Virus record (IMG/VR): IMGVR_UViG_3300026078_000049 | Span: 1 to 41,657 of that record | Length of the DNA: 41,657 bases | Origin: a virus | Direction: 5' to 3' (one strand) | In this document: positions 32,728-36,808 of the stretch, piece after piece | Position numbering within the stretch: position 1 is the first letter of the stretch | Layout: every line of letters begins with the position of its first letter | The notes under the pieces: generated by a model | Databases searched by the model: none | Told to the model about the DNA's origin: nothing | The model's input: only the letters and a program-made list of their open reading frames with translations | Program-made: the position numbers and the translations under genes

Positions 32728-33773
32728 GCGATGGCGGGCATGGCACATGTCCCACCTGTCACCGGCCCATGGTCGATGAATCGCCGTATCTCAGCCGCGC
32801 GATTGTCGATTACCTTCTGCTCAAAGAGGGGACGGCTGGCTATCGCGCCACGTCCGCGCGCTTGACCCAGGCAATCGCCTATATCGCGGAGACGGGCTCA
32901 ACGGTCCGGTGCGCCCAGGTTGACGGCATATGGATCGGCAAGTTCCGCAAGTGGCTCGCTGCTCGGCCTGTATTCAATCGGCAGAACGAGCAGATCGGCA
33001 CGTATGCGCTCGGTCATATCGAGGGGTGCGTTCGCCAGCTGGCGGCGGCGATCAATGCCACGCCCGGTCAAACAGCACAGTTCAAGGCTGAGCAGGCGAA
33101 GGACGTAAGCAAGAGCCCGGTCTATCGCGCCACCATCGCGACCATCGCCAAAATGTTCAATTACTGCCTGCGTCCGGACGGCAAGAGCGAGAAGGTGCGC
33201 GCGATCCAAATCAAGGAGCGCCAGAACCTCCTACGCTATCTCCGTTTCGCCGCGGCGACTTGGGCGCGCCCGGATGCGATATACGAGGCGAAGCCCAGCC
33301 AGTGGTTTTCAGAGGCCCGCGTGCTGGATTTGAACCCGATCGGCCGCCGCCAGACCAAGAAGCACCGCCCCAAGGTTCCGGTCGCAAAGCAGTTCGCGCC
33401 GTTCCTGGATAGCGGCGAGGCCTTCATTCCGGTCGCGAGTGTCTATCAGCCGTGGCTCAAGATGGCGAAAAAGCTTGGCCTTCCAACCGGGCGCGAGGCC
33501 GGCCCCAAGCTGATCCGCCGTTCCATGTCCACGCTCGCGCGCAAGCGGATCGGGGAGGCGAACTGGCGGCAGGGGCAGATGATGCTCGGCCACGTCAAAT
33601 ATTCGACCAGCGACATCTACGCGATCCCCGATCCGGCCAATCTTGGCCTCGCGTTGGGCGCGACGGAATCGATTTTGGACGAGATCGAGAAGCTGGCTCC
33701 GGGCGCGTTTTACCGCAACTTTACCGCAACCGGCAACGCGCTTACGTTGCATGAAGGAGGGCTAAGTGCCTGA
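32547..33773 (+). CDS. int: Tyrosine-recombinase integrase
   Basis: The 408-residue protein has a zinc-like CPTCHRPM motif near residue 70, a SAM-like core-binding domain, and a C-terminal catalytic domain. Box I is likely AATWARPDAIYE, box II is KLIRRSMSTLARKR with Lys where His is usual (K-x-x-R), and the end is MMLGHVKYSTSDIYA with the His and nucleophilic Tyr. It has AGAGGGAACA before the ATG. The tRNA-Gly attachment sequence follows directly. It integrates the phage at that tRNA gene; no separate excisionase was recognised. Confidence 0.9.
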   Translation: MPATKRPKPLYQRGIYALYPREGRNLEIVWYDSERRRERSASAGTSDVAEGKLALDRKYLSDGGHGTCPTCHRPMVDESPYLSRAIVDYLLLKEGTAGYRATSARLTQAIAYIAETGSTVRCAQVDGIWIGKFRKWLAARPVFNRQNEQIGTYALGHIEGCVRQLAAAINATPGQTAQFKAEQAKDVSKSPVYRATIATIAKMFNYCLRPDGKSEKVRAIQIKERQNLLRYLRFAAATWARPDAIYEAKPSQWFSEARVLDLNPIGRRQTKKHRPKVPVAKQFAPFLDSGEAFIPVASVYQPWLKMAKKLGLPTGREAGPKLIRRSMSTLARKRIGEANWRQGQMMLGHVKYSTSDIYAIPDPANLGLALGATESILDEIEKLAPGAFYRNFTATGNALTLHEGGLSA

Positions 33774-33781
33774 TAATAGGT

Positions 33782-33828
33782 TGGAGCGGGTAGCGGGAAT
33801 CGAACCCGCGTATGAAGCTTGGAAGGCA
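33782..33828 (-). other. attP core: 3' half of tRNA-Gly(UCC)
   Basis: On the minus strand this reads from the anticodon loop CTTCCAA through the T-arm GCGGGTTCGATTCCCGC to the acceptor CCCGCTCCA, the 3' half of a tRNA-Gly with anticodon UCC. No matching 5' half (D-arm, acceptor 5' strand) follows, so it is not a complete tRNA. The 5' side of the anticodon stem (GATGC) carries a mismatch, marking the probable edge of identity. Its place nine bases after the integrase stop is typical of attP. Confidence 0.85.
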
Positions 33829-33953
33829 TCATCCGTCCCGATGAAATGGCTGTTTTCTGCCGATATCGGTATTTCGATATCGCGAACGCGCCGGGAACAA
33901 AGCCGGCTTTCGACGGGATTTTACCGCAGGTTTACCGCGCGGGCGGTGACGCT

Positions 33954-34490
33954 GTGACGCTCGGCTCCCACCAGCAAACGATCGGTAAGTCGCAAGTCCA
34001 TCTGACGCCGCGCTGGATTCTGGACGCGCTTGGACCGTTCGACCTCGATCCTTGCGCCGCCACCGTGCGCCCATGGGATTGTGCAGCTCGGAATCTGACC
34101 GAGGCCGATGATGGCCTATCCGCTGAGTGGGCGGGGCTTGTCTGGCTCAACCCACCGTTCGATCAGCGGCAAGTTGGGCTATGGATCCGCAAACTGGCCC
34201 GGCACGACAACGGGATCGCCCTGCTTCATGCGCGCACCGAAACCGATTGGTTCGAGCCGATCTGGCAGGACGCAACGCTGATTCTGTTCCTCGGCAAGCG
34301 CGTCACCTTTTGCAAGCCGGACGGATCGCCATGCACCGTCACAAATGCTCGCACGGGCAAGGTCAGCGTGGCGAACAGCGGCGCGCCCGTGGTGCTGGCT
34401 GCGAGATCGGCTGCAGCTGCGGATCGGCTGCGCAAATCCAACCTGCCGGGAGCATATGTGCCTGGCAATGCCGTGAGGCTCGCCGCATGA
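33954..34490 (+). CDS. Phage N6-adenine methyltransferase (Dam type)
   Basis: The 178-residue product matches the phage Dam family: HLTPRWILDALGPFDLDPCA near residue 15, GLVWLNPPFDQRQVGLWIRK carrying the NPPF catalytic motif, and ARTETDWFEPIWQDATLILF. The start is best at GTG 33954; upstream codons run into attP. It likely methylates adenine in phage DNA, protecting it from host nucleases. It is the first gene beyond attP. Confidence 0.9.
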   Translation: MTLGSHQQTIGKSQVHLTPRWILDALGPFDLDPCAATVRPWDCAARNLTEADDGLSAEWAGLVWLNPPFDQRQVGLWIRKLARHDNGIALLHARTETDWFEPIWQDATLILFLGKRVTFCKPDGSPCTVTNARTGKVSVANSGAPVVLAARSAAAADRLRKSNLPGAYVPGNAVRLAA

Positions 34491-34572: not shown

Positions 34573-35169
34573 TCAGGAGGTGCCGCAGCGCTCGGTTTCG
34601 TCGGCGATGAAGTCGAGCAAGCGCTGTGAAGGCCGAAACCATTCGCCGTTCAGCCTGGCATCGTCGAAGATTCGAAGGATTACCATCTCATGCGCGTAGG
34701 AGCCGGGGATCCAGCCGAGCAACGTAAGCGGTTGCTTGAACATCTTTTCGTGCTCGGCCTTTCTGCGCTCAATATCGCTGGTCGATCCTATCTTGATGTG
34801 CCCATTTGCGGCCTGGAGGAAATAGACCTTGTTCGCCCCGTCGTCGGGGATGGGAAGATCGCGGAGGCGCGCGACCGTCATTGGGTCAACCGGCCGGCGG
34901 CGGATCATGCTAGGATCACCCTTGCCGGCCAGTATCGTCCGCGCTTCATCGCGCAGCCGCCGCGCCTCGTCCAAGCTGATGTACGGATAGAGGCCGAATA
35001 CCAGCCGCCTCTCTTGGCCGTGATCGTAGTATTTGAGGCGAAAGGATTTCGAGCCTTTGCGCGTCACGAAAAGGTACATGCCGCCGCCATCGGCGATCTT
35101 GTAATCCTTGTTGCGGGGCTGGGCGGCTTCGATCGCCTCCGGGGTCAGCGCATTCTTAACGAGGCGCAT
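34573..35169 (-). CDS. Integrase-arm domain fused to a GIY-YIG (MUG113) nuclease
   Basis: The 198-residue protein combines two domains. Residues 5-85 (ALTPEAIEAAQPRNKDYKIA, then GGGMYLFVTRKGSKSFRLKY, then RRLVFGLYPYISLDEARRLR) are the arm DNA-binding domain (DUF4102) normally found at the N-terminus of P4-type integrases. Residues 112-195 are a GIY-YIG-like nuclease of the MUG113/T5orf172 type: VYFLQAANGHIKIGSTSDIE, RR as the catalytic Arg region, and LNGEWFRPSQRLL with the catalytic Glu. There is no tyrosine-recombinase domain. It lies on the minus strand behind a small RHH gene, 0.8 kb from attP, against the direction of its neighbours. Confidence 0.85.
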   Translation of the reverse strand: MRLVKNALTPEAIEAAQPRNKDYKIADGGGMYLFVTRKGSKSFRLKYYDHGQERRLVFGLYPYISLDEARRLRDEARTILAGKGDPSMIRRRPVDPMTVARLRDLPIPDDGANKVYFLQAANGHIKIGSTSDIERRKAEHEKMFKQPLTLLGWIPGSYAHEMVILRIFDDARLNGEWFRPSQRLLDFIADETERCGTS

Positions 35170-35314
35170 CGGTCTTCTCCTTCACGCCCAGCGCAATCAA
35201 GCGCCGGATCGCTTCGGATCGAGACCATATGCGCTCCTTCGCGCGCCATACGTCGAGGGCCTCAATCTCGCTGGGCGAGATCACAAGCTGAATCCTCACG
35301 TCCTTTTTCTCCAT
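35156..35314 (-). CDS. Ribbon-helix-helix regulator
   Basis: A 52-residue protein: KDVRIQLVISPSEIEALDVW gives the N-terminal strand and first helix, and ERIWSRSEAIRRLIALGVKE the second helix of a MetJ/CopG-type RHH fold. It overlaps the fusion nuclease start by 14 nt, so both are one transcript. RHH proteins often repress their own operon; a palindrome at the divergent promoter (35369-35383) is a likely target. Confidence 0.82.
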   Translation of the reverse strand: MEKKDVRIQLVISPSEIEALDVWRAKERIWSRSEAIRRLIALGVKEKTDAPR

Positions 35315-35355
35315 CCGTCCTGTTTGCACATGCGCGGCTAGCGCGACAACAGCTA

Positions 35356-35402
35356 GTTACACAACTTGCTTGACATGTGCAAGTGCTATTGTTACACAGC
35401 TT
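35356..35402. promoter_or_regulatory. Divergent promoter with palindrome and direct repeats
   Basis: CTTGACATGTGCAAG (35369-35383) is a near-perfect palindrome that contains TTGACA for rightward and TTGCAC for leftward transcription. It is flanked by direct repeats GTTACACAACTT (35356-35367) and GTTACACAGCTT (35391-35402), each on the -10 side. The layout suggests one protein controlling the RHH/nuclease operon and the small gene at 35429. Confidence 0.6.
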
Positions 35403-35428
35403 ACACATATTTCGGAAGGCGACGCCCG

Positions 35429-35617: not shown

Positions 35618-35826
35618 TCGCCGTCTGCTCAGCTAAGCCGCGCACCTCGGTACAGAACAACCATGCGCGCTTTGGATCGCAATGGTGGGCGCGCGATGTC
35701 TACCACATCCAAGGCGAACCCGGGCGCACCCTTTGCGGTCGAGACGCGAGCGAGTGGCTGACCATCGGCGAGATCGAAGCGCCTGACCACAATTGCTGTG
35801 CGCGATGCGCCAAAGCCGCAGCATGA
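35614..35826 (+). CDS. Small Cys-containing protein
   Basis: A 70-residue ORF starting at GTG 35614 (GTGA overlap). It has VYHIQGEPGRTLCGRDASEW and DHNCCARCAKAAA, giving a probable C...C-x2-C metal site. Phage proteins of this zinc-knuckle type are common and unassigned. Confidence 0.65.
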   Translation: MIAVCSAKPRTSVQNNHARFGSQWWARDVYHIQGEPGRTLCGRDASEWLTIGEIEAPDHNCCARCAKAAA

Positions 35827-36197
35827 CCGCGCTCAGTTCCCCAACCCCCGATGGTGTGAGGGTCCTTGTGTGCGGCGGTCGCAACTTTGACGACGCTGGG
35901 CTTCTAGAGCGCGTGTTGAACGATCTGGATGAGCGTCCGCGCCTGATCATAGAGGGCGGTGCGCAAGGTGCTGATCGCTGGGCTCGCTCTTGGGCCAGAA
36001 TGCGCGGGATAGAGGTACAGACCTTTGAGGCGCAATGGGCGCGCGATGGCCGCGCGGCGGGGCCAATTCGTAATCAGGCCATGCTCATCAACGGGCGACC
36101 TGATCTGGTCGTCGCCTTCCCAGGTGGTCGTGGGACAGCCGATATGGTTCGGCGCGCCAAGGCTGCCGGCGTTCGCGTGATCGAGGTGCCCGCATGA
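35823..36197 (+). CDS. DUF2493 / YspA-like SLOG protein
   Basis: The 124-residue product has VRVLVCGGRNFDDAGLLERV, RLIIEGGAQGADRWARSWAR, RDGRAAGPIRNQAMLINGRP and LVVAFPGGRGTADMVRRAKA. These are the GGR.F, GgA.GAD, GpiRN..M and fpGG.GT motifs of the YspA-type SLOG (Rossmann-like) family, thought to bind nucleotide or NAD-derived ligands. It is coupled to the next gene by ATGA. Confidence 0.9.
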   Translation: MTALSSPTPDGVRVLVCGGRNFDDAGLLERVLNDLDERPRLIIEGGAQGADRWARSWARMRGIEVQTFEAQWARDGRAAGPIRNQAMLINGRPDLVVAFPGGRGTADMVRRAKAAGVRVIEVPA

Positions 36198-36808
36198 CCC
36201 GCCCCGCAGAGGATAAGGTGGGGAGGGATGAACTCGACCTGTTTGGCGCGCCGGTGATGCGGCGCAGCGCCCATTTCCCGTTTTCGGACATTCGCCGGCG
36301 CTTGTCGCGAGATTGGGGGCCGGGGCCGCGGGCGTTCGTGCTCGGCTGCAATCCGAGCACTGCCAGCGCCGATAAGGAAGATCCGACGACGCTTTGGCTA
36401 AACGCGTGGTTCAAGCTCTACGGCTTCGGTGGCTACGATATCGGCAACCTCTATCCGTTCTGCACATCGAGCCCGCAGGTATGCCGCCAGCGCGCTGATG
36501 CCGCTTTCGCCGGTGAATGGCACGACCGAGACCAGATCCACGCCAATATCTCGGACGTCGCACGCATGGCGAAGGCGGCCGACCAGGTGTTTGTCTGTTT
36601 CGGTGCGATCGCTTGGGACTGGGACTTCGTCGAGCACGTCGTGGAGATGATCCAGACCAACGAAGCACCCTGGCCCGACCTGTGGTGCTGGGGAACGACC
36701 GCAAGCGGCGCGCCGAAGCACCCGATGGCCCGGGGTCTCCACCGGATCCCGCGCGATCAAAAGCCGATCCTATGGCGGGCAGGATCGCCCCGCACCATCG
36801 CCGCCTGA
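36194..36808 (+). CDS. DUF1643 protein
   Basis: A 204-residue protein with RAFVLGCNPSTASADKEDPT near residue 45, WFKLYGFGGYDIGNLYPFCT near 75, and QVFVCFGAIAWDWDFVEHVV near 130. The NPSTA...DPT and GyGg....NLyPf motifs match DUF1643. The function of this family is unknown. It is preceded by the SLOG protein, so the two may act on one small-molecule pathway, which is inference. Confidence 0.87.
   Translation: MTRPAEDKVGRDELDLFGAPVMRRSAHFPFSDIRRRLSRDWGPGPRAFVLGCNPSTASADKEDPTTLWLNAWFKLYGFGGYDIGNLYPFCTSSPQVCRQRADAAFAGEWHDRDQIHANISDVARMAKAADQVFVCFGAIAWDWDFVEHVVEMIQTNEAPWPDLWCWGTTASGAPKHPMARGLHRIPRDQKPILWRAGSPRTIAA

Follow-up and report, generated by a model that had tools for sequence, protein, structure and literature searches.

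The window, a virus record of 41,657 bases analysed over its whole length, carries terminase, portal, head and endolysin genes of tailed-phage type. Near its attachment site lies a gene whose product joins the arm DNA-binding domain of a P4-type integrase to a MUG113/T5orf172 GIY-YIG nuclease, and a gene for an RHH regulator overlaps the start of this fusion gene by 14 nt (Table 1). Both are on the minus strand and the genes on either side are on the plus strand, as a preliminary description of this DNA had noted. Its estimate that the fusion lies some 0.8 kb from attP is also borne out, the distance from the attP core, a tRNA-Gly sequence, to the 3' end of the fusion gene being 745 bp.

Table 1. 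Features of the window between the integrase gene and the divergent intergenic region
Feature	Coordinates	Strand	Basis
Phage's own integrase, 408 aa	32547..33773	+	phrog_1 at 0.001
Putative arm-type sites of own integrase, left pair	33709..33727	+	TTTACCGC twice (33709/33720), 11-bp spacing
attP core (tRNA-Gly 3' end, tRNA sense on the minus strand)	33782..33828		tRNA match, recurrence in contigs
Putative arm-type sites of own integrase, right pair	33920..33938	+	TTTACCGC twice (33920/33931), 11-bp spacing
Dam-like DNA adenine methyltransferase, between attP and fusion	33954..34490	+	PF05869 8e-11; phrog_111 1e-29
Arm-MUG113 fusion gene	34573..35169	-	198 aa (stop included); Pfam, AlphaFold2, Foldseek
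MUG113/T5orf172 GIY-YIG nuclease domain (about residues 113-189)	34603..34833	-	Profile matches, residue alignments
P4-type integrase arm DNA-binding domain (residues 8-91)	34897..35148	-	PF13356; PDB 3ju0/3jtz by sequence; Foldseek
RHH (CopG-type) regulator gene	35156..35314	-	PF01402 (RHH_1) 1e-4; phrog_4738 transcriptional repressor 5e-7
Divergent intergenic region, candidate operator	35315..35428		Repeats

The N-terminal half of the fusion protein matches the Pfam family Arm-DNA-bind_3 with an E-value of 2e-19 and 69.9 bits against a cut-off of 27. In the C-terminal half both MUG113 (residues 126-182, E 7e-6) and T5orf172 (residues 115-183, E 2e-5) score above their curated Pfam cut-offs, and this half also matches viral MUG113, T5orf172 and GIY-YIG models. 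The C-terminal tyrosine recombinase domain (Phage_integrase) is absent from the fusion by Pfam and in the model; MUG113 occupies that half. The AlphaFold2 model, built from a 30-row alignment, has a mean pLDDT of 91.6 and a pTM of 0.69, with both domains well folded and their predicted placement relative to each other less certain. A Foldseek search of the PDB with this model returns only 3ju0, 3jtz and 3rmp at E ≤ 0.001 (E 7e-7 to 7e-6). These are the integrase arm domains of HAI7 and HPI together with an entry for a P4-like integrase/attP, and their solved arm domains are 40-44% identical to that of the fusion. Among phage families the arm half comes nearest to phrog_3423 (PHROG, 1.7e-24, residues 6-91), a family of unknown function with 157 positions, the remainder of which is unlike the nuclease half. 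The reading frame is intact and its base composition resembles that of the other genes of the phage. Pfam, AlphaFold2 and Foldseek agree with the earlier proposal of an integrase arm fused to a GIY-YIG nuclease that replaces the recombinase, and the predicted structure holds both domains.

Assignment of the nuclease half to MUG113/T5orf172 rests on the profiles and on the conserved Y, KIG, R, E and GEWF residues. Residues Y116, K126, G128, R136, E161, R172, G175, E176, W177 and F178 are invariant among the window protein and ten MUG113 relatives, and all five Arm-MUG113 fusions, comprising the window copy and the four relatives described below, retain Y116, K126, R136, E161 and the GEWF motif. 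The exception is position 165, where a His that is near-invariant in the MUG113 family, and conserved in 4/4 relatives of the same architecture, is a Leu in the window copy. The nuclease residues are therefore mostly kept, but the preliminary description missed this substitution, owing to which the window nuclease may be weak or dead. The homologues keep their nuclease residues, so the architecture is not an inactivated integrase remnant throughout. In an alignment of ten proteins that includes Odn, a T5orf172 nuclease of the Vibrio phage ICP1, residues Y127, K138, G140, R148, E180, W199 and F204 (Odn numbering) are invariant, and Odn E180 aligns with E161 of the window protein. E180 is the inferred catalytic residue of Odn and was mutated by its authors to abolish catalysis (PMC8263062). 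The overall profile-to-Odn similarity is weak, so this alignment is a residue mapping within one superfamily.

The open reading frame of the RHH gene reaches a GTG at 35329 (35156-35329), the likely start being the ATG at 35314. In the divergent intergenic region upstream, GTTACACA(A/G)CTT is found at 35356 and 35391 and TTGCACATG/CATGTGCAA at 35324/35374; a promoter scan gave nothing above chance. The RHH gene probably represses the fusion operon. Further along the window (35793-36808) a YspA-like SLOG gene (PF10686) is followed by a DUF1643 gene with a 4-nt overlap.

The attP core begins 8 nt past the integrase gene and is 87-94% identical to tRNA-Gly 3' ends. Seven other viral contigs have a related integrase, and there too the best match to this core (36-41 of 47 nt) comes just behind it. 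The motif TTTACCGCA occurs four times in the window, compared to 0.16 expected, and the TTTACCGC doublets, judged from the sequence, are likely to serve the phage's own integrase as arm sites. This integrase has no Pfam integrase match and no Arm-DNA-bind_3 domain and is therefore not P4-type. We rejected it as a source of the fusion arm, given this lack of Arm-DNA-bind_3 and the absence of similarity between the two (z 1.4). Relatives of the integrase are 39-71% identical to it, and 12 records with a related integrase carry no copy of the fusion, their flanks being divergent or cut at att. The start codon of the methyltransferase gene between attP and the fusion is uncertain.

The preliminary description had proposed looking for the same architecture and its neighbours in other prophages. 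Single-protein scans of viral and genome contigs gave no relatives, and tblastn against phage and plasmid records gave no match spanning 80% of the window protein. A first fusion pattern, YP..SL..AR, found nothing, in part because one relative has HP, and a relaxed pattern succeeded. The relatives come from profile and pattern searches alone, namely a MUG113 locus census of viral contigs and then the relaxed pattern scan, a pattern-bound, non-random sample in which counts are lower bounds. At least four further Arm-MUG113 fusions were recovered in viral contigs (L185/L276, L280, L282 and L288), with 33-45% identity to the window protein and near end-to-end matches at E-values of 1.4e-27 to 8.1e-45; all four pass both Pfam cut-offs. 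An arm-fusion profile run over 385 genomes (the class of a Devosia genome) returned, among at most eight scored candidates per genome, integrase-type arm matches and no full-length fusion.

In each of the four relatives a P4-type integrase lies directly downstream of the fusion on the same strand, with an overlap of 10 nt (L276), 4 nt (L282) or 7 nt (L288), or a gap of 6 nt (L280). The order in L282 is tRNA-Met, fusion, integrase, and an AlpA gene lies upstream in L273 and L288. Such stop-start overlaps in divergent phages point to long-lasting co-translation with the integrase. The arms of the fusions are 36-47% identical to those of their partner integrases, about as much as to the arms of other integrases, which rules out that fusion arms in the P4-type family track the arm of their own integrase and makes this look like an old family rather than a recent duplication. 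The window copy is an orphan whose phage uses a different, non-P4 integrase. Methyltransferase genes are found near the fusion in three of the five loci: the window, L273 (2281-3258) and L288 (3090-4178). They are of differing types (Dam-like and N6_N4_Mtase; that of L288 by motif only), and their presence may reflect self-protection or coincidence. We kept a restriction-modification reading of these three loci as a lead only, phage methyltransferase genes being common.

MUG113 domains also lie beside integrases of other kinds, as detected with a home-made integrase profile. Among the MUG113 domains listed, 22 of 153 distinct ones are within 600 bp of an integrase, where a naive count expects about 4.5; 20 of these are on the same strand as the integrase and 16 have it upstream. 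For one integrase type, 9/22 records with at least 1 kb of downstream sequence have a MUG113 gene directly behind the integrase on the same strand. In at least nine loci (L048, L055, L060, L062, L063, L225, L239, L249 and L254) the sole tRNA T-arm motif of the locus is at the integrase/MUG113 junction, and L059 also has one there. The gene order is integrase, attP, MUG113; the MUG113 gene is the first across attP from the integrase, on the same strand, and in some of these loci the core lies inside the 3' end of the integrase gene. Prophage integration would part MUG113 from the integrase gene, so expression driven from the latter could be limited to the circular form. In L063 and L066 the fusion partner of MUG113 is nearly the same as the N-terminal domain found in the integrase directly upstream (z 14.8 and 23.1), these N-termini matching tyrosine recombinases of phages Rivra and Lacusarx. 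In L160 MUG113 is likewise joined to a copied N-terminal domain, that of the locus's own adjacent non-P4 integrase (z 9.7). Tracking of the own integrase's N-terminal domain is thus supported in three non-P4 loci. In L160 (1845-2711 on the minus strand and upstream) the integrase frame is broken by a stop between the N-terminal domain and the rest. Two MUG113 proteins are encoded directly upstream of an integrase: that of L197 (10883-11539) has an N-terminus with a weak match to HTH_17 (excisionase-like), and that of L032 (4911-5393) has no Pfam match there. The integrase-adjacent MUG113 proteins of L225 and L253 are almost without an N-terminal domain, and perhaps a partner supplies binding.

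We infer that the fusion would be a DNA endonuclease or nickase for which the integrase arm-binding domain serves as an address label. Where an element uses a P4-type integrase, the arm domain would bind the arm-type sites that surround the element's attachment region, and the GIY-YIG domain would cut near the bound sites. Among the relatives, the fusion gene and a P4-type integrase are coupled in translation, and one of these pairs immediately follows a tRNA attachment site. The window copy has lost this integrase partner, and the RHH gene stands in its place. The window copy could then cut other P4-type elements in the same cell (islands, satellites, prophages) at their attachment regions, to the presumed benefit of its phage, an attack in trans comparable to the cutting of a rival's origin by Odn. 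Action in trans is favoured by the absence of the partner integrase, the RHH gene in its place, and a different integrase with its own arm sites. Targeting of arm sites was among the roles suggested in the preliminary description, and it is now better supported by the coupling of same-architecture relatives to P4-type integrases. We tentatively prefer a nuclease addressed to integrase arm sites, with the window copy acting in trans on P4-type elements, while giving it somewhat less than an even chance.

For the relatives, the tight operon with the integrase fits a role in the element's own recombination at least as well as an attack on others. A possible but doubtful extension is that AlpA, the arm-directed GIY-YIG nuclease and the P4-type integrase form a hitherto undescribed one-operon integration module, in which the state of an attachment region, or the element it belongs to, would decide whether the nuclease cuts it. 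Extrachromosomal attP circles of competitors or superinfecting relatives would be an example of such targets; similar fusions of an integrase domain with MUG113 have arisen repeatedly with unrelated integrases. Slightly less probable, and on balance unlikely, is an accessory to recombination that acts together with AlpA (excisionase) and the integrase. Through occupation, nicking or cleavage of arm sites it would direct integration or excision, for example by removing unintegrated attP circles, and the window copy would be a leftover of such a module. The stop-start overlaps with the integrase in divergent phages, the upstream AlpA genes, the position of MUG113 directly across attP from the integrase in many phages, and the weak HTH_17 match fused to MUG113 directly before the integrase in L197 all speak for such a role. 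However, in the window phage, which has no P4-type integrase, the gene has stayed intact behind an RHH gene of its own, the 12 copy-less records with related integrases indicate that the gene is dispensable there, and an element whose nuclease cut its own attP would have to be protected.

A free-standing homing endonuclease, which would cut copy-less relatives near the integrase gene and attP and spread by repair copying (intronless homing), with its place beside attP as the insertion site, is a distinctly unlikely explanation. In its favour, T5orf172 genes mark boundaries of exchange between phages, where they behave like modular homing endonuclease genes (PMC10448857). In the loci surveyed here, the integrase-adjacent MUG113 genes bear many different N-terminal domains. 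Recent insertions would not, however, be expected to overlap the integrase start so precisely in four divergent phages, the records examined gave no empty-site pair whose flanks match, and the window copy lies well beyond attP, behind a methyltransferase gene. More improbable still is an inactive nuclease that serves as an arm-site decoy or integration repressor, or is a decaying remnant: the His-to-Leu change in the window copy is consistent with it, and binding alone could compete with the integrase for arm sites, but the other nuclease residues are kept in all five members, and the intact frame, phage-like base composition and high-confidence fold argue against decay. The preliminary description had also considered an RHH-controlled toxin or a defence nuclease, a reading that the analysis does not support. 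The overlap of the RHH gene with the nuclease gene would suit a toxin-antitoxin pair with the fusion as toxin. The four relatives, however, showed no RHH gene next to the fusion, its partner there being the integrase (the L280 contig ends at the fusion), so that no conserved RHH-toxin gene pairing, as in type II toxin-antitoxin systems, is seen among the five fusions. A search of all loci for the window's RHH protein found itself alone, RHH genes are common autoregulators, and PADLOC 2.0 has no defence-model match for the window fusion. We consider such a pair very improbable.

If the preferred reading of an arm-addressed nuclease is true, integrase arm domains would be recurrently re-used as nuclease address labels, and attachment sites would be a battlefield or control point, as replication origins are for Odn. 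It could explain MUG113 genes beside attP in temperate phages and could offer compact site-directed nucleases. The system is testable, as P4-type arm sites are short, a P4-like integrase/attP complex has been solved (3rmp), and five natural fusions and four partner integrases are in hand.

The preliminary description knew of no characterised system with this architecture. This holds for the exact domain pair, of which no description was found in freely accessible published papers: a full-text search for GIY-YIG with DUF4102 returned nothing and one for integrase arm-type with GIY-YIG a restriction-modification review only. The logic, on the other hand, has a proven precedent. P4-type tyrosine integrases share Arm-DNA-bind_3 with the fusion, which is without their core-binding and catalytic recombinase domains. 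The T5orf172/MUG113 homing-endonuclease-like phage genes of PMC10448857 have the same nuclease module with exchangeable DNA-binding domains; in the parts of that survey covered here these are zinc-finger (CapR, DUF723, DUF4397) and RepA_N domains, and the integrase arm is not among them. The precedent is Odn (gp88), in which a rival's RepA_N domain is joined to T5orf172 and which cuts the rival's origin (PMC8263062). Like Odn, the window fusion places a C-terminal T5orf172 GIY-YIG domain behind a DNA-binding domain from the site-binding protein of a mobile element, and the catalytic residues of the two align. Unlike the RepA_N domain of Odn, which reads replication-origin iterons, the fusion carries an integrase arm domain, and whereas Odn belongs to a lytic phage, where it replaces CRISPR-Cas, this family is coupled to integrase and occurs in temperate phages, next to integrase and attP.
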